Shown here: positions 44,536-55,864 of the stretch, piece by piece
How the letters are laid out: each line of letters begins with the position of its first letter
Position numbering within the stretch: the first letter of the stretch is position 1
From: Opitutaceae bacterium EW11
Lineage (GTDB): Bacteria; Verrucomicrobiota; Verrucomicrobiia; Opitutales; Opitutaceae
Assembly (NCBI GenBank): GCA_003054665.1
Contig: QAYY01000008.1
Span: 47,665 to 111,664, forward strand
Direction: 5' to 3'
Length of the DNA: 64,000 nucleotides
Program-made: the position numbers and the translations under genes
The notes under the pieces: model-generated
Seen by the model: the letters and a program-made list of their open reading frames with translations, nothing else
Databases searched by the model: none
What the model was told of the DNA's origin: nothing

Positions 44536-46092
44536 TCAGGTGGCCGGCGGATCCTTCCGCAGGAAAACGAAGACTCCGGGCCGGATCGAATACGGCTCGA
44601 ACTTCGCCGAGCCGCCCGACAGGTGGCCGACGAACTCCGGTCCGCTCAGAACGATGCCGGGCGCCAGGTGCGCGGGCGGCTCCGTCCAGTAACCGGTCCG
44701 AGGGTACTTGCGAAGCGTCCAGGGCAGCGGCCAGTAGTCCTGCGCGATCACCTGCACGACCACCTCGTTCCGCCCGCCGTTCTGCCGCGCAGCGAGGGCG
44801 TCGACGTCTTTTTCGAGGCGGGCGAGATCGGGACTGGAGGGAGAATAGGCGAGGGAGTTTTCCGGATCGACGGCGTGCACCTGGCAGCGCTCCCAGGTTT
44901 CGCGGCCGAGCAGCACAAGCGCCGTCGCGGCGACGACGAGGCTCCACGCGCGGCGCGTTTGCCAGAGGGCAGACCAGCCCAGGCCGGCGAGCACGGAGAG
45001 CGGCAGCAGCCAGGCCAGCATGAGCCAGGGCGTCTTGTACGGAAGGGCGGAGAAAAAGAGGAAGAGCAGGAGAGCCCAAAGCGTCAGGGCGAGGCCGAGC
45101 GGGTGCCGGCGTTCCGCCCAGAGGCCGGCGAACGCCAGCACGGGGAGAAGCCAGCCGCTCCACGGGATGCCCGCGCCGGTGGGCCGGCAGAGCCACGCGA
45201 GGTACGTCCAGGCCGGATACGCGTGCTCCGAGCCCGTGCCGCGGCTGAGCTGCGGGCCGATGGCATAGAAAAGCCCAAACGCCTGATCGGGGTGCCGGCC
45301 GAAGCCGGTGAAAACCAGGAGCACGACGGCGAAAGCCGTGAAGAGCAGGATCCCTGCTGCGGCGGCGAGAGCCAGCAGGGCGGCCGGGGTGTCGCCCGCG
45401 CCGGCCGGAGATGGCCCGAACGCGGGAGCGCTCGCGGGTTTCGACGTTGCGGTCGGCGACCGACGGATCCAACGCGCGGCGAGCACGGAGAAGATCGCGA
45501 GAAAAAGAATCGGCGCGGCGGTTTCCTTCGTCGCGAGCATCAGGCCTGCGAGCACGCCGGAGAGCACCGCGTGTTTCCAGAAGGAGCGTCCCTGCGTCCA
45601 GCATGCTTTGGTCAGGCGCAAGAAGGACCCGAAGAACAGCAGCAGGAGGAGCATCAAGAGCAGCTCGTGGATGAAGATGCCGCTGTAGTAGACGAACGGG
45701 GCGCCGATCCCGAGAGCGACGGCGGCCGCCACGCGCGCCGAGAGCGGCGCGTCGAGTAAGGCCCAGAAAACGGACGCGGCGAGCAACGCACCGAAGACGG
45801 CGGTGAAGCCGCGCAGCATCCACGGTTCCATCTGGGCGGGATGCCGGATGCCGAGCGGACCGAGCACGGCGGCGGCGATCTGGTAGAGGGTCGGACCGTG
45901 GTGGTCGTGAGTCCGGTAGTGGTATCCGGACTCAAATACCTCATCGAGGATGAAGGCGTTTACCGCCTCGTCGGTGTGAAACGGCCGGGACTGCAGCCCC
46001 GGCAGACGAAGCAAAAACGCTCCCAGGGCGACCAGGAGCGCGAGCGCCGGCGTGCGCCAGGCAGGGACAGTTATTGCGCGGGAAGTCCCCAC
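44536..46092 (-). CDS. GT-C-like multipass membrane protein, TIGR03663/Agl23-like
   Basis: 518 aa, about 10-12 membrane helices, starting at a GTG (46092) that overlaps the end of the preceding gene by 22 bp. The periplasmic loop after helix 1 has F-H-T-D-E-A-V-N-A and H-D-H-H-G-P, a pattern of glycosyltransferase-39/TIGR03663 proteins that use polyprenyl-phosphate sugars. A final soluble domain (about 415-518) follows the last helix. Known relatives help attach sugars to exported proteins or lipids. Its place inside an oxidoreductase operon is unusual, and the role here is unknown. Confidence 0.75.
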   Translation of the reverse strand: MGTSRAITVPAWRTPALALLVALGAFLLRLPGLQSRPFHTDEAVNAFILDEVFESGYHYRTHDHHGPTLYQIAAAVLGPLGIRHPAQMEPWMLRGFTAVFGALLAASVFWALLDAPLSARVAAAVALGIGAPFVYYSGIFIHELLLMLLLLLFFGSFLRLTKACWTQGRSFWKHAVLSGVLAGLMLATKETAAPILFLAIFSVLAARWIRRSPTATSKPASAPAFGPSPAGAGDTPAALLALAAAAGILLFTAFAVVLLVFTGFGRHPDQAFGLFYAIGPQLSRGTGSEHAYPAWTYLAWLCRPTGAGIPWSGWLLPVLAFAGLWAERRHPLGLALTLWALLLFLFFSALPYKTPWLMLAWLLPLSVLAGLGWSALWQTRRAWSLVVAATALVLLGRETWERCQVHAVDPENSLAYSPSSPDLARLEKDVDALAARQNGGRNEVVVQVIAQDYWPLPWTLRKYPRTGYWTEPPAHLAPGIVLSGPEFVGHLSGGSAKFEPYSIRPGVFVFLRKDPPAT

Positions 46093-46745
46093 ACTTCCAC
46101 CTCGATGTAGTGGTTCATGTCCGAGGTGGTGTTACCGTTGCTGTAGAGCCGCACATAGCGCGCCTTCGTGCCCTTGGCGTCGATAATCCGACCTTCGTTC
46201 GTCTCGATGTACGTGGGATCCTTGCCTTCTCCGAGGCCGTTTACGTTGCGGTCGTCGTTGTTGTAGACCGTGACCACGTCCTTGATGAAATCCGGGTCGT
46301 CGGACAGCTGGGCGACCACGGCTTTGTAGACGCGGGCCTGTGAGTGGTAGTGCCAGACGACGATGGCGTAGATGGGCGAGGCGGCGCCGAGATCGACCTG
46401 AACCCACTGCTTGCCCTTGCCGAACTCTACGTAATTGCCCTCGTCGCCGGCCTTCTCGCCGTCGGTGATTTGGGCCAGGTCGCCGAGCACGGGCTCCATG
46501 TCGCTGCTCGTGACGGTTTTGTTCAGCGCGAGATTCACCACGCCTTTCGGCACCATGAAATCCGGTCGGCGTCCGCTGGCGCGCGGCGTCTCGAGGTTCG
46601 GGAGCTTCACCGGGACCGGCGTGCCGACGAACATCGGCTTGGGAAGCTGGAGTTTGAGCGGCACCTTCTCCTCGGCGCGTGCGAACGGCAGCAGCGCGGC
46701 GGCTGCGAGGAGGAGGAACGATGAGCGAAGGGCGAGGTGGTTCAT
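46071..46745 (-). CDS. exported discoidin-like (F5/8 type C) domain protein
   Basis: 224 aa from the ATG at 46745. A signal peptide (residues 1-25, ending F-A-R-A-E) is followed by about 40 linker residues. A beta-sandwich then resembles galactose-binding/discoidin domains (L-N-K-T-V-T-S-S-D, W-V-Q-V-D-L-G, Y-V-R-L-Y-S-N-G, I-E-V-E-V-W-G). It has no catalytic motif. Such domains bind sugars or cell-surface glycans. It lies between an oxidoreductase gene (64 bp) and the GT-C gene, in the same direction. Confidence 0.8.
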   Translation of the reverse strand: MNHLALRSSFLLLAAAALLPFARAEEKVPLKLQLPKPMFVGTPVPVKLPNLETPRASGRRPDFMVPKGVVNLALNKTVTSSDMEPVLGDLAQITDGEKAGDEGNYVEFGKGKQWVQVDLGAASPIYAIVVWHYHSQARVYKAVVAQLSDDPDFIKDVVTVYNNDDRNVNGLGEGKDPTYIETNEGRIIDAKGTKARYVRLYSNGNTTSDMNHYIEVEVWGLPAQ

Positions 46746-46809: not shown

Positions 46810-48189
46810 TCAAACCGCGAAATCCTCCGGCGTGCAGGTGATGAGCGTTTTCTTTTCCACGGCTTCGATCGCCTTGAAGACGGTCATCTCGCTCTTGAAC
46901 GCCTCGTCGGCGGGGCAGTTGAGCTTGGCCGTGCCGCGGATGGCGTTGAAGAAGTTCTCCAGATGCGGCTGGTGGATCGCCTTGTTGAGGACGACCGGCA
47001 ACCGGTACGAGGCGAGCTCGGCCGTTTCGCGGGCGTCGACTTTTTCGCTTGAAGCTTCGGTGGTGTCCGCCGCGGAGGCGGGGGCGGTCGGGGCGGCGAG
47101 CCAGTGGCGCCGGATCCACTCATCCCAGGCGGGCGCAGCGGCCTCGCGAAAGATGGACGTGTATTTGGGATTCTCCGACATCTTGAGCGTGCCGTTCACG
47201 CCCATGAACTGCTCGTAGTAGCCGCCGCCGGCGCTTGTGGTGGTCTGCACCTGGTAGAACGCCCGCGCCACGCCTTCCGGCAAGTGGTACTCGTAGATCA
47301 CCATCGCGTTGTCCATCCACTCGTGGTTCGGGTAATAGTCGCGTCCGCCGTTGCCGATCACGGTGGTCGGCGTGGTGTCGAAGAACCAGTTGAAGATGTC
47401 GATCTGGTGGGCGCCGAGGTCGGAGAGCGGTCCGCCGCCGTATTTTTTGTACCAGCGCCAGTTCCTGAACTGGTGCATGTCCTCGAAGCCGTATTTCTCG
47501 AGGAGCGCCTTGGACATGGCGGCGCGGTTGGGCCAGCCGAGGTCGTCGCTCGCGGCGCGATTCCACTGCGCGTTGGCCGCGGTGATGCGCCCGAGGAGCT
47601 TGGCGTCGCGGATGAGCCGGTCGCGGGCCACGAGATAACGCGGATTGCTGCGGCGCTGGTGGCCGATCTGCAGGAGCTTCCCCGTTTCGCGCATCGTCTT
47701 CACCATGGAGCGGGCGCCCTCGATGGTGTTGGACATCATCTTTTCGCAGTAGACGTGGAGGCCGGCGCGGAGGCAGTCGTTGGTGACCGGGGCGTGCCAG
47801 AAGTCGGGCGTGGCCACGAGGACCGCCTGGATATCCTTCTCCTTGGCGAGCATGTCGTGGTGGTTCTCATACGCGCGGACTTCGAAGCCGCTCTTTTTCA
47901 GGTAACGCTGGCCGTAGGTCCGGGCGTACTCCCAGATATCGCAGACGGCGACGATGCGCACGGTCGGGATCTTGAGAACCGCATCCATCAGCACGCGGCC
48001 CTGCGCACCTACGCCGACCAGCGCGATGTTCAAGATCGAATTGGGCGAGACGGAGCCGTCGGCCTTCGCCTGAGCCCAGGCGGGCGTCGCGCGGGTGAGC
48101 GCGAGGCCGAGCCCTGCGGCCGAGACGGTTTTGAGAAAGGCGCGCCGGTCGAGACCCGCCGGTTCGTTCGCAGGCAGCGGTGAACTCAT
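46810..48189 (-). CDS. Gfo/Idh/MocA oxidoreductase with Tat signal (copy 1)
   Basis: 459 aa. A Tat signal (D-R-R-A-F-L-K-T-V, then a hydrophobic stretch) leads into an NAD(P)-binding domain (L-V-G-V-G-A-Q-G) and the family C-terminal domain with L-G-A-H-Q-I-D. The lysine motif reads C-E-K-M-M rather than E-K-P. A long insert (about 365-400) is low-complexity. Tat export of a folded, cofactor-loaded oxidoreductase places it in the periplasm. Its ATG overlaps the DoxX stop by 4 bp, so the two are translationally coupled. Expected to oxidise a sugar hydroxyl to a keto group. Confidence 0.88.
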   Translation of the reverse strand: MSSPLPANEPAGLDRRAFLKTVSAAGLGLALTRATPAWAQAKADGSVSPNSILNIALVGVGAQGRVLMDAVLKIPTVRIVAVCDIWEYARTYGQRYLKKSGFEVRAYENHHDMLAKEKDIQAVLVATPDFWHAPVTNDCLRAGLHVYCEKMMSNTIEGARSMVKTMRETGKLLQIGHQRRSNPRYLVARDRLIRDAKLLGRITAANAQWNRAASDDLGWPNRAAMSKALLEKYGFEDMHQFRNWRWYKKYGGGPLSDLGAHQIDIFNWFFDTTPTTVIGNGGRDYYPNHEWMDNAMVIYEYHLPEGVARAFYQVQTTTSAGGGYYEQFMGVNGTLKMSENPKYTSIFREAAAPAWDEWIRRHWLAAPTAPASAADTTEASSEKVDARETAELASYRLPVVLNKAIHQPHLENFFNAIRGTAKLNCPADEAFKSEMTVFKAIEAVEKKTLITCTPEDFAV

Positions 48190-48704
48190 GAGCGGGTGAG
48201 CGCGAAGCGGTTGTGCTTCGAAAGCTGGAGCGCGTACGCGATCAGCGCGATATGGATGGCGAGCCAGGCCACGCCGGCGTCCTGCTTGATGAGGATGAGG
48301 CCGACCGTGAGCGCAACGTAGATGGCGCCCATCACGGCCAGGCTAATGCGCGTCCAGAGGCCGAGCAGCAGCGTGATGCCGAGGAGGATCAGCGCCCAGC
48401 CGAGGGCGGCGTAAAACGGCGAGGTGAGGAACGACGGGAGCAACGGCTCCTGCGCGAACTTGTCGCGCAGGGCGTCGGGAATCGCGCGGTAACTGTGGAA
48501 GGAATAGAACTTCTGCTGGATCTCCACCACGGCGCCGCTCGGGTCGGGCTTGCCCGCCTCGTCGAGGAGCGGCTGTTGCACGGTCCGCACGTCGGAGAAT
48601 TTCTCGATGCCGGTGACCAGGGCCCGGATGCCGAGCCAGGCGCGGAGGACGAGGAAGCCGAGGGTGCTGCCGCAGTCTTGTTGAGTGGAGGTGGAGTCGC
48701 TCAT
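48186..48704 (-). CDS. DoxX-like inner-membrane protein
   Basis: 172 aa from the ATG at 48704, with four predicted membrane helices (about 15-33, 90-110, 115-135, 145-165) and a longer polar loop between the first two. It resembles the DoxX/DoxD family, whose best-known members are subunits of quinone reductases. It sits between the TIM-DUF1080 lipoprotein gene and a Tat-exported oxidoreductase, overlapping the latter by 4 bp. A role linking periplasmic redox enzymes to the quinone pool is attractive but unproven; DoxX proteins without known function are common. Confidence 0.78.
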   Translation of the reverse strand: MSDSTSTQQDCGSTLGFLVLRAWLGIRALVTGIEKFSDVRTVQQPLLDEAGKPDPSGAVVEIQQKFYSFHSYRAIPDALRDKFAQEPLLPSFLTSPFYAALGWALILLGITLLLGLWTRISLAVMGAIYVALTVGLILIKQDAGVAWLAIHIALIAYALQLSKHNRFALTRS

Positions 48705-48741
48705 GAGGGTCGTTTCAAAGTTGGTGGCCCGGGAGGCAGAT

Positions 48742-50268
48742 TCAAAGCCGCTCGACCAGAAGGTTCCGGAAGGCGATGGGAGTGCCGTGGTATTGCAGAC
48801 CGATGCGGCCGCTCCGGGGCATGTCCTTGTACGGGGTGTTGAACTTGTTCGGAGAGCCGTCCGGGTTCTTGTGCGCCTCGGTCCACTGGTCGAGCTTGGC
48901 GTCGGTGAGCGGTTCACCGTTGAGCGAAACCTGGATGCGGTTGCCCTTCGCCACGATCACGAAGCGGTACCATTCGCCGGGCTCGATCGCAATCTGGCGC
49001 GTTGGAGCGAGGACGTCGAAAATCGCGCCGACGAGGTGTTTTCCGTCCGGTTCGTCTCCCTGTCGGATCTGCACTTCGATGGAGGTCTGGAGCCATTCGG
49101 CGGGATCTGCACAGCGGAGAAACACGCCGCTGTTGCTGTCCGCCGCACACCGGAATTCCAGCGAGAGCGCGAAATCGCCGTAGCTTTCTTTCGTCCAGAG
49201 ATCGCCGCCGCCTTTGGCGACCAGGACGCCGTTTTCCCACGCCCAGGAGCCGGGCTTGAACTCCGCGTTGCTCAGATCGGCGGCGAGCAGCGGTGTCGGG
49301 GAGGGCCAGAGCGCGGAGTTTTTCCCGCGACCCCCGGAGAAGACGTCGTCGACCTTGCCCGTCTGCTGCGGCGGCACGACGGCATTGCGGGCGAGTTCGT
49401 CCTCCGAGGCGGCGACGGCCCGGCGGAAGTACTCGGCGCAGCGCCCCACGTCCGATTCGAGCGAAGGCGTGTTGTGTTCGTATTCGACAAACAGGTACCC
49501 GGAGAAGCCCTGCCGGCGCAGCTCGAGAAGCTGTCCCGAGGCGTTCGAAGCGCCGAGGCCCCACGGAACGTCATGGGCCTCCTTCACGCCGCGTTCGTTG
49601 AGGTCCTTGAAATGAAGCTGAATGATCCGGCCCTTGGCCTTGCGCAGGCTCTCAATCGGATCGTAGCCGGAGCGGACCCAGTGGCCGGTGTCGGCGCAGA
49701 GTCCGACGTTTTCGCCGTAGGGTTGGACGGTCGAGAGCGCAAATTCGGGATCGTGATAGATCGACGGCGTCGGGTGATTATGGAGCGCGACGCGAATCCC
49801 GGTCTCCTTGGACAACTGCGCCACGAGCGGCATGGTGTCGGGCGGAGGCTCCGTGGCGATCTCCTCCATGCCCATGGCTTTGGCGAAGTCGAAGATCTGG
49901 CGCCACTCGGTCTCGTCTTTCCCGATCACCACGCCGTAGCTGACGAGGTGCAGCCCGCGCTCTTTCACCAGCGCGAGCACCTTGGTCCGGGTGGCGGCGT
50001 CCATCTCGTGGCCGAACTGGCCGTCGAGCCCGCCGCCAAGCGTCTGCCCCCGGTAAGCTTGCAGGTAAGGAATTCCGGCCGCCTTGGCCTTGTCGAGGGC
50101 CTGGGCGAAGGTGAAATCGCGGAAGGTGTAGGTCTGGAGCCCCAGCTTGAGCTGCGGCTTCTCTGCGGCGGTCTTGCCGGCGGCGGAGGGGGCGGAGGAC
50201 GACTGGCAGCCGGCCAGGACGGCGAGGAGAGCCGCGGCGAACGCGCCGAAAAGTGCGGTGAGTTTCAT
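48742..50268 (-). CDS. lipoprotein fusing a sugar-isomerase TIM barrel to a DUF1080 domain
   Basis: 508 aa. Lipobox L-A-G-C, with Cys21 as the lipidated residue. Residues about 40-290 form a xylose-isomerase-like barrel with metal ligands Glu140, His163/165, Asp193 (C-A-D-T-G-H), His196, His219 (Q-L-H-F-K) and Glu262 (F-V-E-Y). Residues about 325-508 form a DUF1080 beta-sandwich (W-A-W-E-N-G-V-L, N-S-G-V-F-L-R, G-E-W-Y-R, I-G-L-Q-Y-H-G). DUF1080 members act on 3-keto-glycosides, and related TIM barrels catalyse 3-keto-glycoside elimination. A single polypeptide could thus cleave a keto-sugar by elimination plus hydration. It lies 37 bp before doxX and 31 bp after an oxidoreductase gene, tightly within the operon. 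Confidence 0.86.
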   Translation of the reverse strand: MKLTALFGAFAAALLAVLAGCQSSSAPSAAGKTAAEKPQLKLGLQTYTFRDFTFAQALDKAKAAGIPYLQAYRGQTLGGGLDGQFGHEMDAATRTKVLALVKERGLHLVSYGVVIGKDETEWRQIFDFAKAMGMEEIATEPPPDTMPLVAQLSKETGIRVALHNHPTPSIYHDPEFALSTVQPYGENVGLCADTGHWVRSGYDPIESLRKAKGRIIQLHFKDLNERGVKEAHDVPWGLGASNASGQLLELRRQGFSGYLFVEYEHNTPSLESDVGRCAEYFRRAVAASEDELARNAVVPPQQTGKVDDVFSGGRGKNSALWPSPTPLLAADLSNAEFKPGSWAWENGVLVAKGGGDLWTKESYGDFALSLEFRCAADSNSGVFLRCADPAEWLQTSIEVQIRQGDEPDGKHLVGAIFDVLAPTRQIAIEPGEWYRFVIVAKGNRIQVSLNGEPLTDAKLDQWTEAHKNPDGSPNKFNTPYKDMPRSGRIGLQYHGTPIAFRNLLVERL

Positions 50269-50299
50269 GGCAGTGCGGTATCCGGGTTGGAGTTACGGC

Positions 50300-51643
50300 T
50301 CAGAACAACCGGTACGACTTGTGGAGGAAACGATCCGCCTCGGGTTGACCCACGCAGACGCCCTTGACCGGATCCCATTCGATCGGCTTGCCCATGCGAA
50401 TGGCGACGTTGCCGAGCGAGACCATCTCGGTGAGATCCGCCGAGTGGTCGACGATGTTGGAACCGGGAGCCGGGCCGACGCCTTTGCAGGCCGCGATCCA
50501 CTCCAGGTACGGATTCGATTTCGGCACGCGGGGAATCCGCTTCGGCGGGCGGTGTTTGAACTCCTGCATCCTCGATTCGGGGATGAGGCGCGGCGACTCG
50601 CCGTAGTCGCCCTGGGAAAGGATCGCGCCCTTGTCGCCGCGGTAGAGCGTGCCGCCGGGCGGAAGCGTGGCTCCGGGGCCGAGTTCCTCTGGCACCGGCG
50701 GTTTCTTTCTGCCGTCCCACCAAGTCAGTTTCACCGGCGGCAAGGAGCCGCGAGCGGGGAACTCGTAGGTGACGACGGACCATTTCGGAGCGGTGACTTC
50801 GCTGTTGCCCTCGCTCTCGGCGGAGACCTTTACCGGACCGCGGAGATCGAGCGCCCAGAATGGAGCGTCCATCGCGTGGCAACCCATGTCGCCGAGCGCG
50901 CCGCATCCATAATCCCAATACCCGCGCCAGTTGAACGGAGCGATTGCCGGGCTGTATTCGCGCTCGGGCGCGACGCCGAGCCAGAGATTCCAATCGATCG
51001 TCGGGGGCGTGCCGTGCGCGGGCTGGGGAAGATGCATGCCCTGCGGCCAGATCGGCCGGTCGGTCCAGCAGTGCACTTCGCGCACGTCGCCGATCACGCC
51101 GGCCTCGATCCATTCCTTCACCAGGCGGGTGCCTTCGTTGGCGTGGCCCTGGTTGCCCATCTGCGTGACCACGCCGGCTTTCGCCGCGGCCTTCTTCAGC
51201 TCGCGAGCCTCGCCGATCACGTGAGTCAACGGTTTCTGGACGTAGACGTGTTTGCCCCGCTCGAGCGCCATCATGGCAATCGGGAAGTGCATGTGGTCCG
51301 GCGTCGAGATCGTGACCGCGTCGATCCGGTCGTGCATCTCGTCCAGCATCCGCCGGAAGTCGCGGTACCGCGGCACCTGTGGAAACTCGAAGAAGGCGCG
51401 TTCGGCGCTGACGAAATCGACGTCGCAGAGGGCGACGATGTCTTCTCCCGCCACGCTCATCACGTCGATGAAGCCTTTCCCTCCGCAGCCGATGCCGGCT
51501 ACTCGGAGTTTTCTGCCACTGCGGACGACATTGCGGAAACGGGAGTCGGTGGTCGCGCCGGCCAGCGCGGCAGGCAACCCGGCGGCGGCGAGCGCCGCGA
51601 GCGAGGTCGCCTGGAGAAAACGACGACGAGTGATGGTGGCCAT
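50300..51643 (-). CDS. Gfo/Idh/MocA oxidoreductase with Tat signal (copy 2)
   Basis: 447 aa from the ATG at 51643. The Tat signal is T-R-R-R-F-L-Q-A-T plus an alanine-rich core. The Rossmann motif is G-I-G-C-G-G-K-G. The lysine motif is V-Q-K-P-L, with Gln in place of the usual Glu. The C-terminal domain has G-D-M-G-C-H-A-M-D. It starts 10 bp after the ThuA-HEAT stop and ends 31 bp before the TIM-DUF1080 gene. Probably a periplasmic sugar oxidoreductase; the substrate specificity probably differs from the other copies. Confidence 0.88.
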   Translation of the reverse strand: MATITRRRFLQATSLAALAAAGLPAALAGATTDSRFRNVVRSGRKLRVAGIGCGGKGFIDVMSVAGEDIVALCDVDFVSAERAFFEFPQVPRYRDFRRMLDEMHDRIDAVTISTPDHMHFPIAMMALERGKHVYVQKPLTHVIGEARELKKAAAKAGVVTQMGNQGHANEGTRLVKEWIEAGVIGDVREVHCWTDRPIWPQGMHLPQPAHGTPPTIDWNLWLGVAPEREYSPAIAPFNWRGYWDYGCGALGDMGCHAMDAPFWALDLRGPVKVSAESEGNSEVTAPKWSVVTYEFPARGSLPPVKLTWWDGRKKPPVPEELGPGATLPPGGTLYRGDKGAILSQGDYGESPRLIPESRMQEFKHRPPKRIPRVPKSNPYLEWIAACKGVGPAPGSNIVDHSADLTEMVSLGNVAIRMGKPIEWDPVKGVCVGQPEADRFLHKSYRLF

Positions 51644-51653
51644 GACGAAAAGA

Positions 51654-54473
51654 CTACGGGGTCCGGGCGGCGGTGCGGTTGGCGGCGGTGCGCTGTTCCC
51701 GGAGCTCCCGGGCGGCCTTGCGCCCGTCGAGCGACTCCACCTGGTCCATCGCGGCGATGATCGCGTCGCGTTCTTCATCGCGTTGCGCGGCTTTCCAGGC
51801 GCGGCGGTAGGCCTCGATCTTCTCCGCCGGCCGGGGCTCGGTCATCGCGACGTAGCTGTCGACGAACCCGCGCAGCGCGAGGATGCGCTCCGTTTCGTCG
51901 CTACCGGTCTCGGCAACGCCGATCAGGTGTTTCGCGGCGCGCGCGTTCCGGGCGCTCGAGAGGGCGCGGATCACTTCCTTGCGGCGTTCGACCGAAGAAT
52001 CGCGGAGGAGGCGGTCGATCGCGGCGTCGGCCTGATCGCCGTCGATCACCGACAGGGCGGCGATGAAGACGAGCCGGTTCTCCGGGCTGGCCTTCGCCAG
52101 CTGCTGGTCCAGCAGCTCCGCGACCGGTCCGGCATCCGAACGGAAGCGGACCGCGTTCATCACGGCGTCGGACCACGCGCGGCGTTCCGCCGCGGTTTTG
52201 ACCTGGGACTGAAGCTTGAACAGAAGCGGGAGGTCTTCTCCTTGGACGAGGACACGCACGGCCTTGAACGCGGCTTGGCGAAGCTCGCGGTCCTGGGTGC
52301 CGGCACAGTTCACGGCGAACGTCATCGAGGCGCGATCGATGCGGTTGCCCGCAATCTCGAGCAGCGCGGCCTGGACGGCCGGTGCGCTTTTCGACTGCAG
52401 CGAACGAAGATGGTCGTCGATGCCGGCGGCGCGCAGCCGCGATAGGGCGTCGACCGCGGACGGGCGGTCGTCCTTCGATTCCAGTCCGGCGATTAGCGGC
52501 TCGGCGTCGGCGACGGAGGCTCCGCAGGCTCCGAGAGCGGAAATCGCCGCAAGCCGGACGTCGCGGTCCGGGGATTTGAGTCCTTGCTGGGCAAGGGGGA
52601 CGAGCGGCTTTTGTGCGATCTGCGTTGCGGCGAAGAGCAGGACGCCTTGAACGCGCGGCGGCAGGGCGGAGAAGCCGCCCGTCAACGAGGCCAGCGGCCC
52701 GTGATCGGAGGTGTCGCCAGCGACCGCGGCGCGGAGCCAGGCCGAGCCGAGCACGGAGCCCATTTCGGCCGAGGTGAGCAGCGGCTGCGTGTCCTTGAGG
52801 CCGGCGGCTCCGGTCGTGCGGATCAGTTCTTCGGCGGCCGCTCGTTTCTGGGCGAAGGTCGGGGCCGAAGCGATTGCGGCGCGCAGCTCGGCGGCTCCCG
52901 TGGCGTCGCCGTCGGCGGCGCGAAGGGCGGCGGCGCGAATGAGCGCCCAGCCGCGGCGGTCGACCAGCGTCTTCGGTGCGGAGAACGATTTCAGCGCTGC
53001 GAGCGCGTCGGGCGAGCCGATGCGCGCCAGGCAATCGAGCGCGGCTCCCGCGAGCGCTGGATCTTCCGATTTCAGCAGCGGCGTCACGGCCGAGACCGCT
53101 TTGGCGGGGCGCCTCAGCGAGAGTCCGCTCAATACTGCGGGCTTCACCGCGTCGGGGGCGGTGCGGAGCAGCGCGGCGAGGGCGGCGTCGGCTTCGTCGC
53201 CCGGAATCTCGGTCAGGGCGCGGATGGCTGGATCCGCCGTTTCGGCCGATTCGGACCACTGGGCGAGGAGCGAAACGGATTTGGCGGTGCCGATGCGGCT
53301 GAGCCAGTTGGAGATTTCTTTCTTCGCGCCGGGACTGAGGGTGGGGCGCGATCCAACCTGGATCAGATCGTCTTCGAAGCGCGCACGGCCCGCGGCATCG
53401 CTCTGGCGCAGACCGGAGTCGACCATCTTCAAGAGGAAGGTGTCGTCTCCCTCGCGGTAGGCGGCGATCTTCGCCAGCGTGTCGGAGTTGTGAATACGCT
53501 CGGCGTCGTGGCGTTCGAGCAGGGCGACGGGCTGCTCCGGCGCGAGCGCCGGCTGGGGCGCGGGACTGAGGCCGGCCGAAGGCGCATCGGGCGCATCGAG
53601 ATCGCCGAGGGCGTACTGGATTCCGTCGAGGTACTGCTGGAGGACCTCGGGCGTCCAGAACGTCTGATCGTTGTGTCCGAGCGAGCTGTAGAACACGCGG
53701 CCGGAACCTTCGGGCTTGATCCAGCCGATGGGAAAATCCCGGTCGGCCCGCACGAGCATTTTGGCCGGCCTCTGGTTGTTCGGCTTGCTCATGTCCAGGC
53801 TGGTGAGCACGCGCTGTTTCTCGCGGCTGTATGGTCCGACGATCTGGTAGATCTCCTCGGGAATCCAGAAACCGTGGCCCCCAAACGCGCGGTTCAAGAC
53901 GTGATCCGGCTCGTCGAGCTTCACTGCGACGGTGTCCGCCGCCACCCACGGATGGCTGTGAAAGACGCCGCCCATCAAAGCCTGGCCCTCGAGCCAGGTG
54001 GGAAAGTTGTCCGATGCGGCGTGGATGCCGATGAGACCTTTTCCGGAGCGAACGAAGTCGATCAGCGCCTGCCGGTGGGCCGGGTTTTGGAACTTCAGCT
54101 GGGTGGTATTGAGAAAGAGGATTCCGTCGAACCGTTTCAGATTCTCCGGCGCGAACGCGCCCATCTCGTTGTTCACCTCGACGCGATAGGCGCCGGTCTG
54201 CTCGCCCATCCGTTTCAACGCGTACAGGCCGGTCGGAATGGAGGTGTGGAAAAATCCTTCCGTGCGCGCGCAGACCAGGATGAGGCGCGGCTTTTTGGGA
54301 GTCGCGAGCGCCTTGGCGGGGAGCGCGGCGTCCACCTTGGCGGCGTTCTCCGGCTTGATGTCCGGGATCGCGCGATTGGGCGCGTCGACGGGAGCCGCCG
54401 ACTGCGCGACGAGGGAGCCTGCACCGGCTGCCAGAAGGGTCAGGGCAAGAGGAACGAAGCGAAGCGGTTTCAT
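51654..54473 (-). CDS. exported ThuA-like domain joined to HEAT repeats
   Basis: 939 aa with a signal peptide (1-23, ending L-V-A-Q-S). Residues about 60-290 form a ThuA-like, glutamine-amidotransferase-like domain (F-F-H-T-S-I-P, G-I-H-A-A-S-D, F-Y-S-S-L-G-H). ThuA/ThuB of rhizobia take part in 3-keto-disaccharide metabolism. Residues about 320-900 are an alpha-helical solenoid of HEAT-type repeats (for example A-A-L-D-C-L-A-R-I-G and A-A-I-S-A-L-G-A-C-G), probably a protein-binding scaffold. The ATG overlaps the stop of the upstream oxidoreductase by 4 bp, so the pair is translationally coupled. Confidence 0.85.
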   Translation of the reverse strand: MKPLRFVPLALTLLAAGAGSLVAQSAAPVDAPNRAIPDIKPENAAKVDAALPAKALATPKKPRLILVCARTEGFFHTSIPTGLYALKRMGEQTGAYRVEVNNEMGAFAPENLKRFDGILFLNTTQLKFQNPAHRQALIDFVRSGKGLIGIHAASDNFPTWLEGQALMGGVFHSHPWVAADTVAVKLDEPDHVLNRAFGGHGFWIPEEIYQIVGPYSREKQRVLTSLDMSKPNNQRPAKMLVRADRDFPIGWIKPEGSGRVFYSSLGHNDQTFWTPEVLQQYLDGIQYALGDLDAPDAPSAGLSPAPQPALAPEQPVALLERHDAERIHNSDTLAKIAAYREGDDTFLLKMVDSGLRQSDAAGRARFEDDLIQVGSRPTLSPGAKKEISNWLSRIGTAKSVSLLAQWSESAETADPAIRALTEIPGDEADAALAALLRTAPDAVKPAVLSGLSLRRPAKAVSAVTPLLKSEDPALAGAALDCLARIGSPDALAALKSFSAPKTLVDRRGWALIRAAALRAADGDATGAAELRAAIASAPTFAQKRAAAEELIRTTGAAGLKDTQPLLTSAEMGSVLGSAWLRAAVAGDTSDHGPLASLTGGFSALPPRVQGVLLFAATQIAQKPLVPLAQQGLKSPDRDVRLAAISALGACGASVADAEPLIAGLESKDDRPSAVDALSRLRAAGIDDHLRSLQSKSAPAVQAALLEIAGNRIDRASMTFAVNCAGTQDRELRQAAFKAVRVLVQGEDLPLLFKLQSQVKTAAERRAWSDAVMNAVRFRSDAGPVAELLDQQLAKASPENRLVFIAALSVIDGDQADAAIDRLLRDSSVERRKEVIRALSSARNARAAKHLIGVAETGSDETERILALRGFVDSYVAMTEPRPAEKIEAYRRAWKAAQRDEERDAIIAAMDQVESLDGRKAARELREQRTAANRTAARTP

Positions 54474-55783
54474 GCGGGCAGGTGCCAGGGCGAGCGATAA
54501 TTGCAGACGAGAAAACGTTCGGCGTCGGGCGCGTTCACCACGCGCTGCGCGGCGGGATCCCAGCGGATCTCGGAAAGGCCTGCGCGCATCGCGGCGTTGG
54601 CGAGGTGCGCGGCCATCGCGGTGGTGTGGGCCTGGGCGATGGGAGAGCGGGGCGTGCCGCGCGTGGCCACGCAGTCGAAGAAGTTCTTCCGGTGGGCGAC
54701 GGCGCCGCCACCCATCGAAAACCCCTGCGTCGGGAGCGGCATGGCGCGCAGGGCGGGCGAACTGTGCTCGATCACGCCGCGATCGACGTAAACCCAGCCG
54801 TCTTCGCCCTCGATCCGCACGCCCATCGGATTGCCCGACGAGACTTCGATCAATTGGCCGCCCGCGAAATGCGCCTCCAGCGAATAGCGGATCGCGGTGT
54901 TATAGATGGGATGGTGGTGGAATTCCGCGGAGATGTTCTTGATGGCGACCGGCACCTCCTCGTTCACGCCCAACGCGAGCTGCGCGATGTCGTAGTGGTG
55001 ATTGATCCAGTCGGTGAGCTGGCCGCCCGCGAACTCATAACGCCAGCGCCAGTTCCAATCGAGGCGCTCCTTGAGGTAGGGGAGGTAAGGCGATGGTCCG
55101 ATCCACCGGTCGTAATCGAGCTCGGGTGGAATCGGCTGCGGTTCCGGCGAAACGAAGTCGGGGATGCCGCCGCCCGGGGGAAGGCCGACCACCACGCGCT
55201 TGATTCGACCGAGAGCGCCGTTGCGCGCGAGAGCGATCGCACGCTGGAACTCGCCGCTGGAGCGCTGCTGGCTTCCGATCTGGCAGACGATGCCGGAACG
55301 CCGAACGGCCTCGACCATCGCGACTCCTTCCGCCGGCGTCCGCGAGAGCGGCTTCTCGCTGTAGATATCCTTGCCGGCGTCCGCCGCGGCGGTGAGCACG
55401 AGGGCGTGCCAATGATCCGGCGTGCAGTTGAAGATGATGTCGACGTCCGGGTCGGCCATCACCTCGCGGAATTCGCCGGTGTGTTTGATGCCCTTGAAGG
55501 TCGGTTCGCCGCGGCTGTCCGCGTACCGCTTCTCGGCCATCGCGACGGTGTTGGCCGCGACGTGTTTGTTCACGTCGCAGACCCAGCGTAGTTGCAGGTC
55601 GGGCTCGCCGAGCACATACTGCATGTGCCCGTGGCTGATGCCTCCCGCGCCGATGAAGCCGACATTCAACTTGCCGGAGGGCGCTTTCCCGCCGCGGCCA
55701 AGGGTCTGAGCTTTGATGATAGTTGGAGCGACCGAAACGGCGGCTGCGCCACCGAGCAGACGGAGAAAACTTCTGCGCTTCAT
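54470..55783 (-). CDS. Gfo/Idh/MocA oxidoreductase with Tat signal (copy 3)
   Basis: 437 aa from the ATG at 55783. Tat signal K-R-R-S-F-L-R-L-L. Rossmann motif F-I-G-A-G-G-I, the standard E-K-P (S-E-K-P-L-S) and W-I-N-H-H-Y-D in the second domain. It is the first gene of the long unit behind the promoter near 55850. It overlaps the ThuA-HEAT gene by 4 bp. Its C-terminus (F-L-V-C-N-Y-R-S-P-W) is unlike the other copies. Expected to work in the periplasm on a sugar or glycoside. Confidence 0.88.
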   Translation of the reverse strand: MKRRSFLRLLGGAAAVSVAPTIIKAQTLGRGGKAPSGKLNVGFIGAGGISHGHMQYVLGEPDLQLRWVCDVNKHVAANTVAMAEKRYADSRGEPTFKGIKHTGEFREVMADPDVDIIFNCTPDHWHALVLTAAADAGKDIYSEKPLSRTPAEGVAMVEAVRRSGIVCQIGSQQRSSGEFQRAIALARNGALGRIKRVVVGLPPGGGIPDFVSPEPQPIPPELDYDRWIGPSPYLPYLKERLDWNWRWRYEFAGGQLTDWINHHYDIAQLALGVNEEVPVAIKNISAEFHHHPIYNTAIRYSLEAHFAGGQLIEVSSGNPMGVRIEGEDGWVYVDRGVIEHSSPALRAMPLPTQGFSMGGGAVAHRKNFFDCVATRGTPRSPIAQAHTTAMAAHLANAAMRAGLSEIRWDPAAQRVVNAPDAERFLVCNYRSPWHLPA

Positions 55784-55841
55784 GAAATGGCGACGCGCCG
55801 GGGCGCCGCGACAAGGGGTTTCAGGATAACGGGCGGGCCGG

Positions 55842-55864
55842 ATTATACACACGACCCCTGGTCG
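55842..55864 (-). promoter_or_regulatory. TATAAT promoter with adjacent CGACC-GGTCG palindrome
   Basis: On the minus strand, CGACCAGGGGTCG (55852-55864) is a perfect 5-bp inverted repeat with a 3-base loop, and TATAAT (55842-55847) follows four bases later. No good -35 box lies at the expected distance, which suits a regulator-dependent promoter. It is 59 bp upstream of the oxidoreductase start at 55783 and just downstream of the AraC-PAS gene, the obvious candidate regulator. Confidence 0.6.

Follow-up and report, generated by a model that had tools for sequence, protein, structure and literature searches.

A conserved fusion of a xylose-isomerase-like barrel and a DUF1080 domain behind a dehydrogenase-like gene in an Opitutaceae bacterium

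Which enzyme eliminates and which one hydrates during the stepwise cleavage of glycosides is a question that the literature consulted leaves unsettled, and a gene fusion that ties both kinds of candidate enzyme to one job offers a way into it. Such a fusion is encoded in the 64,000-nucleotide stretch analysed here (the window; contig QAYY01000008.1, positions 47,665 to 111,664), which belongs to the 6.4 Mb genome of Opitutaceae bacterium EW11 (Verrucomicrobiota). In a single chain, the product of this gene joins a xylose-isomerase (XI)-like triosephosphate isomerase (TIM) barrel to a C-terminal DUF1080 domain, behind a predicted lipoprotein signal. The gene is a genuine, conserved domain fusion inside a known kind of pathway. 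With about an even chance, its product is an exported two-domain enzyme of a stepwise oxidation-elimination-hydration-reduction route, in which the barrel would eliminate and the DUF1080 domain would hydrate. The chemistry itself would be unsurprising, and the value of the fusion is that it helps to assign each step to an enzyme.

The architecture of the protein, its conserved residues, the gene order around it and both the conservation and the break-up of the fusion in relatives are directly observed. The barrel matches Pfam PF01261 (AP_endonuc_2; residues 58-269, 64.6 bits against a gathering cut-off of 31.1) and the C-terminal part matches PF06439 (3keto-disac_hyd, DUF1080; residues 339-505, 127.8 bits against 26.8), while a lipobox follows the N-terminal hydrophobic stretch, as expected for a lipoprotein whose lipidation is predicted. 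An earlier, sequence-only reading of this DNA had placed a lipobox, a barrel and a DUF1080 domain in one polypeptide, and the reading frame, the LAGC motif and both Pfam matches confirm it. The fusion has no name of its own in the Pfam and NCBIfam libraries used. The best NCBIfam match to the whole protein is myo-inosose-2 dehydratase, which covers part of the barrel and, at 39.5 bits, falls far short of the required 290; the chemistry of this dehydratase is also a beta-elimination on a keto-sugar. An antisense open reading frame (ORF) of 560 amino acids (48685-50367, plus strand) spans the whole fusion gene and is most likely a by-product of base composition. Neither this ORF nor one of 216 amino acids in another minus-strand frame (48914-49564) matches any Pfam family at E <= 0.01, so that the coding strand is not in doubt. 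The two-domain chain recurs in other genomes at 40-66% identity, which together with the lack of a Pfam match for the antisense ORF rules out a chance ORF or an assembly join, and its spread over the genomes of the family and over the DUF1080 tree rules out a recent fusion in a single genome.

Among 252 genomes of the family to which the window belongs, 31 (that of the window included) carry a match at E <= 1e-60, weaker matches being left uncounted. The 33 matches comprise 21 with both domains, one barrel with linker (G834) and 11 DUF1080 domains with part of the linker; one of the latter (G809) starts at the second base of its contig, which makes it unclassifiable, so that the DUF1080-only form accounts for at most 11. 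Fused relatives are also present in other families of the class and of the phylum. The spread beyond Verrucomicrobiota rests on five of seven loci, with L031 as the sole fused one and with other phyla sampled unevenly. L031 lies on a contig named as a Caldisericaceae metagenome-assembled genome, it has hardly any linker, it adjoins an ORF with two DUF1080 stretches, and its barrel resembles by eye those of Hydrogenedentota loci. Either a wrong bin or gene transfer may account for this; with its linker almost missing, L031 may also represent a separate fusion.

The assignment of the barrel depends on its likeness to AtOGE of Agrobacterium tumefaciens. In the AtOGE subunit taken as active the metal sits on H132, D163 and H189, with H134 as the base; the H134A variant is devoid of activity and H189A retains less than 0.1% (PMC10628242). 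A phmmer alignment with the AtOGE structure (8bvk), with weak E-values of 0.0046 and 0.0011, pairs H163, H165, D193 and H219 of the window protein with H132, H134, D163 and H189, respectively, so that the ligands and the base of an AtOGE-type eliminase are all present in the barrel at the sequence level. H163, H165, D193, H196, H219, D222 and E262 are kept in all 26 fused rows (window included) and in all four barrel-only rows, and E140 in 25 of 26 and four of four. In a 67-row alignment, counting the rows that cover each position, H163, D193, H219 and E262 are found in 51/51, H165 in 51/52 and E140 in 50/51. The sequence-only reading had spoken of six metal ligands and named only His219 and Glu262; the probable intended set (E140, H163, H165, D193, H219 and E262) is conserved, and metal binding by all six is presumed. 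The nearest solved relative of the barrel is 3p6l (BDI_1903) of Parabacteroides distasonis (Z 37.1, root-mean-square deviation 1.4, 250 aligned residues, 38% identity). Nothing was drawn from the barrel structures 8tcd, 8tcr and 8tcs, whose phmmer E-values are 0.13-0.15.

On the other side of the linker, Foldseek relatives of the DUF1080 domain include structures titled '3-Keto-2-hydroxy-glucal-hydratase' (8v31, AL2; 8tda, BT2) and '3-keto-glycoside eliminase/hydratase' (8rr2, 9fbe), which share Pfam family and fold with the window domain at about 20% identity in structural alignment, the window domain being shorter than this group. Closer are 3s5q (BDI_2473; 36% identity, Z 30.4) and 3imm (35%, Z 30.0). 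Like 3p6l, these two are single-domain proteins, and the titles of all three go no further than isomerase/epimerase or putative glycosyl hydrolase, whereas the window holds both domains in one chain. Three residues in common with the DUF1080 protein BT2157 of Bacteroides thetaiotaomicron (3osd) are widely kept: E398 in 25 of 25 fused and 12 of 12 DUF1080-only rows, Q400 in 24 of 25 and 12 of 12, and D418 in 24 of 25 and 11 of 12, although 3s5q has a Gly at position 418. The protein L098, whose match is below 140 bits, was omitted from these counts. H494, aligned with the His of the BT2157 QDH motif, is retained by all 12 DUF1080-only rows and by 18 of the 25 fused ones; since the rows are related to each other, this is a lead only.

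The gene just upstream completes the picture. Its product scores 410 bits against NCBIfam NF058561 (BT_2158_fam, 'glycoside 3-dehydrogenase'), short of the equivalog cut-off of 750, in a match to the first 423 of the 487 profile positions, and carries a twin-arginine translocation (Tat) signal that is weak yet above cut-off; 31 bases separate it from the fusion gene, and 37 bases follow on the other side. BT2158 itself is a periplasmic glycoside 3-dehydrogenase (PMC11300592). From the sequences we infer each reaction of the following route, their order, and also export and lipidation. The Tat-type dehydrogenase would oxidise C3 of the glycoside; the barrel, with a metal on H163, D193 and H219 and with H165 as the base, would then take the C2 proton and expel the aglycone, leaving a 2-hydroxy-3-keto-glycal, to which the DUF1080 domain would add water to give the 3-keto sugar, possibly with an eliminating activity of its own. 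One of the Gfo/Idh/MocA proteins of the operon would finally reduce the 3-keto sugar. The lipid anchor would hold the window copy in the cell envelope, and the fusion would keep both activities co-located and in a one-to-one ratio; the proposal does not include a physical channel.

A comparable set of genes is found in B. thetaiotaomicron, where BT2156-BT2157-BT2158(-BT2159) likewise bring together a barrel-type isomerase, a DUF1080 protein and a Gfo/Idh/MocA dehydrogenase; a published table annotates BT2156 as a sugar phosphate isomerase/epimerase, BT2157 as a DUF1080 protein and BT2158 as a Gfo/Idh/MocA oxidoreductase (PMC10434189). The likeness to BT2156 is by description only, and BT2156 and BT2157 are separate proteins, whereas in the window domains of these kinds form one chain. 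In a similar way, AtOGE and AtHYD (8ro4) of A. tumefaciens are XI-type barrels of a 3-keto-glycoside pathway, like the window barrel (AtHYD at the level of the fold). AtOGE eliminates and AtHYD hydrates on preliminary evidence, the annotation of each having been putative sugar phosphate isomerase/epimerase (PMC10628242); both are separate proteins, and the passages on them name no DUF1080 partner. A DUF1080 protein has also been proposed to work with LacABC in lactose use (PMC9007349), and further literature is cited alongside (PMC5352709, PMC11032199). No mention of the barrel-DUF1080 fusion was found in the DUF1080 literature searched; since subscription papers were mostly outside this search, the fusion may have been published elsewhere.

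The same slot behind the dehydrogenase is occupied in relatives by three forms. Besides the window, 41 loci with a dehydrogenase beside a barrel or a DUF1080 domain were placed in the dehydrogenase tree: 25 fused, 12 DUF1080-only and four barrel-only. In 40 of these 41 loci, which were selected for holding a dehydrogenase, this gene is directly upstream, on the same strand and at most 477 nucleotides from the first matched base, and in L091 it is directly downstream instead. Counting L031 and L100 with the fused loci of the tree, 27 were viewed with wide flanks, and in 25 of these the dehydrogenase is adjacent. Loci whose stretch holds no dehydrogenase neighbour, or holds it elsewhere, stand outside the tree (fused L031 and L100; DUF1080-only L108; barrel-only L034, L035, L036, L037 and L103), as do L032 and L033, copies of L145 and L146. 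The neighbourhood survey covers L089-L108 and L131-L154; further barrel-only and DUF1080-only matches (L005-L030, L045-L088), with flanks of about 1.5 kb, enter it only where they are among these.

What remains of the linker in the split forms suggests how they arose. Its common pattern, by eye, is roughly DLxxGxVxPxGFSxDVxxxWAxGRGKDSxRWP. DUF1080-only proteins retain the right part of it behind a signal-like stretch, and one of them (L105) retains nearly the whole, the barrel-side DLAAGRV included; among the barrel-only proteins, L144 retains the whole linker with GRGKDSLRWP, and L101, L106 and L107 the left part. In the dehydrogenase tree the three form labels require 11 changes, against a minimum of two, and shuffled labels were as low in 2 of 200 cases. 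With 3s5q and 3imm as the root of the DUF1080 tree, the fused rows are basal and the DUF1080-only form requires seven changes, at least five by the starred branches. Linker remnants and trees therefore point to a fusion that came first in most of the tree set, with one half lost repeatedly. Repeated loss is claimed without an exact number, since much of the inner branching is weakly supported, both trees have long branches that meet, and the count could be too high if genes were transferred.

A barrel search at E <= 1e-8 covered the 12 genomes that have a DUF1080-only locus (with G809 uncertain). Nine of them encode barrels at other places, for the most part 26-41% identical (47% in G256, and 50% in G780 across a fragment), and G807, G126 and G757, which are 94, 99 and 90% complete, had no barrel relative at this threshold. 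Conversely, all four genomes behind the barrel-only tree rows hold DUF1080, given that in G834 a DUF1080 match (C2:10584-11168) immediately precedes the dehydrogenase gene, that G101 and G059 have 39 and 38 matches, and that G494 (L101) has one elsewhere. Among the genomes of the other barrel-only loci, the search covered G074 and G066, with 42 and 32 matches. G101, G059, G074 and G066 belong to one family of the class, and their 32-42 DUF1080 matches each compare with 10 in the genome of the window.

The sequence-only reading had gone further and proposed that a membrane-tethered protein channels an unstable enone between two facing sites. AlphaFold2 predicts the full-length chain from the 67-row alignment with a mean predicted local distance difference test (pLDDT) of 89.6 and a predicted template modelling score (pTM) of 0.68, residues 1-12, 20-24 and 305-315 being below 50; the barrel alone (42 rows) reaches a pLDDT of 97.7 and a pTM of 0.93. 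The gap between the two domain matches measures 20-46 residues in 24 of 25 fused proteins; in the remaining one, which carries an extra domain there, it is 212. Either half also occurs in the same gene slot without the other. Since linker length varies and relatives are split into halves, a fixed channel is disfavoured, and the modest pTM with its low-confidence linker gives a face-to-face arrangement no support. Co-localisation of a reactive intermediate may be useful even without a channel. Membrane tethering fits the window protein with its lipobox and does not extend to a conserved trait: a simple lipobox pattern appears in just five of 13 other fused proteins (L031 and L089-L100, with starts picked by eye), L095 being doubtful and L092 having a Cys outside the accepted pattern.

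The division of labour between the halves is supported by the AtOGE-like site, the hydratase or eliminase/hydratase titles and the adjoining dehydrogenase-like gene. Against it stand several observations. AtOGE holds in its other subunit a metal 5 Å away on H132, H66, E39 and E161 (PMC10628242), and in the phmmer alignment E161 corresponds to Cys191 of the fused barrel, which makes the AtOGE site only partly common to both. Fold scores tie DgpB-type eliminases with D-tagatose/D-psicose 3-epimerases at Z of about 24-25, the isomerase Art22 scores above both (Z 27.6), and the probable hydratase AtHYD is likewise an XI-type barrel. The DUF1080 domain is devoid of the HPDAKLG stretch of BT2157 and has Q403 in place of the BT2157 Asp in LDN, a marker pair that is the analysts' own choice from BT2157 and its near relatives and has no published definition. 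The score of the upstream dehydrogenase leaves its substrate unassigned by family. Finally, single deletions of BT2157 and of BT2158 caused no growth defect on raffinose-family sugars (PMC11501099), and one DUF1080 protein has been described as a hydrolytic endo-xanthanase (PMC5673643, PMC10881899).

The split that the sequence-only reading drew, with elimination by the barrel and hydration by the DUF1080 domain, may thus be too clean: in vitro BT2158 is reported to need either BT2156 or BT2157, and the titles of 8rr2 and 9fbe join eliminase and hydratase in one protein. The main rival follows from this. Cleavage would be redundant, the DUF1080 domain both eliminating and hydrating, the barrel adding a second eliminase and with it a wider choice of aglycones or linkages, and either half being dispensable. 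This is unlikely, even if the conversion of glucosinolates in vitro by BT2158 with either BT2156 or BT2157, as given in a review (PMC12385236), is what it would predict, and DUF1080-only loci recur beside the dehydrogenase, also in the three genomes without a barrel relative. The same source reports that in vivo, in B. fragilis, BT2157 and BT2158 alone fail on glucosinolates, BT2156 or BT2159 being needed as well; moreover, the closest structures to the fused DUF1080 domain are 3s5q and 3imm, both uncharacterised, with BT2157 further off, so that a double activity may not carry over, and where this barrel is absent an unrelated enzyme may supply the step. Somewhat less probable again is a barrel that acts as an AtHYD-like hydratase, or as an epimerase or isomerase of the 3-keto sugar, leaving cleavage of the 3-keto-glycoside to the DUF1080 domain. 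The equal or higher fold scores of XI-type hydratases, isomerases and epimerases would accord with it, as would the naming of BT2157 as a 3-ketotrehalose hydrolase (PMC9007349), but the H163-x-H165 pair, aligned with ligand and base of AtOGE, is invariant in the fused barrels examined. A DUF1080 domain reduced to a non-catalytic sugar-binding module that positions the barrel, on which the sequence-only reading would fall, is unlikely, and we give it very little weight: the His of the QDH motif is lost in seven of 25 fused and in none of 12 DUF1080-only proteins (related rows, again a lead), while almost every row has E398, Q400 and D418, DUF1080 stands without a barrel beside the dehydrogenase in 12 loci, and the solved relatives are titled as enzymes.

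Returning to the eliminating barrel with a hydrating DUF1080 partner, a tentative extension, which we consider possible and on balance doubtful, is a self-contained eliminase-hydratase of the envelope that would turn a 3-keto-glycoside into aglycone and 3-keto sugar and would not release the enone to the medium, and whose halves could each cleave, so that lineages repeatedly dropped one. If true, the fused lineage would be a natural experiment, in which the dehydrogenase gene is retained beside the remaining half. Fused, DUF1080-only and barrel-only relatives behind a like dehydrogenase mean that a small number of purified proteins would suffice to test which half does what, and the outcome could sharpen the naming of Verrucomicrobiota proteins annotated just as sugar phosphate isomerase or DUF1080.

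Table 1. Coordinates in the window of the fusion gene, its parts and the surrounding genes.
Feature	Position	Strand	Basis or remark
Coding sequence of the fused lipoprotein	48742..50268	minus	508 amino acids and a stop codon; begins with ATG, frame uninterrupted
Signal peptide and lipobox LAGC (L18-A-G-C21), predicted lipidated Cys21	50206..50268	minus	Sequence; lipidation inferred
XI-like TIM barrel, residues ~38-292	49393..50157	minus	Pfam PF01261, barrel-alone prediction, likeness to 3p6l
HNH motif with H163 (aligned with AtOGE metal ligand H132) and H165 (aligned with AtOGE base H134)	49774..49782	minus	
D193, aligned with AtOGE metal ligand D163	49690..49692	minus	
H219, aligned with AtOGE metal ligand H189	49612..49614	minus	
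E262, invariant in the barrel rows examined	49483..49485	minus	
Inter-domain linker, residues ~287-324	49297..49410	minus	Structure prediction; pieces retained in relatives of either split form
DUF1080 / 3-keto-disaccharide hydrolase domain, residues ~325-508	48745..49296	minus	Pfam PF06439; 3s5q and 3imm nearest
Gfo/Idh/MocA protein with Tat signal, BT_2158_fam-like glycoside 3-dehydrogenase	50300..51643	minus	Pfam, NCBIfam; start moved to M46 of the listed ORF
ThuA domain and HEAT repeats	51654..54473	minus	Pfam
Second Gfo/Idh/MocA protein	54470..55852	minus	Pfam, NCBIfam
DoxX/MauE-like protein	48186..48704	minus	Pfam; under both cut-offs
Third Gfo/Idh/MocA protein with Tat signal	46810..48189	minus	Pfam, NCBIfam
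F5/8 type C (galactose-binding-like) domain protein	46071..46745	minus	Pfam; start picked by eye

Read along the minus strand, the operon runs from a Gfo/Idh/MocA gene through ThuA-HEAT, the Tat-type Gfo/Idh/MocA dehydrogenase and the fusion to the DoxX/MauE-like gene, another Tat-type Gfo/Idh/MocA gene and the F5/8 type C gene. The last three recur as a block in relatives, and this block is also found away from the fusion or next to split forms, as in L105 and L144. Larger architectures exist as well. A barrel with two DUF1080 stretches is encoded at L100:410-2560 and L098:7287-9707 (the first stretch of L098 being weak), a barrel with a probable F5/8 type C domain and DUF1080 at L099:1561-3696, and a barrel with a probable F5/8 type C domain at L101:410-1840, the F5/8 type C matches of the latter two (24.4 and 27.1 bits) being just under the cut-off of 28.2. 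One pattern-based scan of viral contigs yielded a single candidate and no relative. After the operon, the minus-strand gene at 44536-46092 matches NCBIfam TIGR03663 (flippase activity-associated Agl23; 128.3 bits against a cut-off of 126.25), and a relative of it is present in 13 of the 41 tree loci, many of whose stretches stop before that point.
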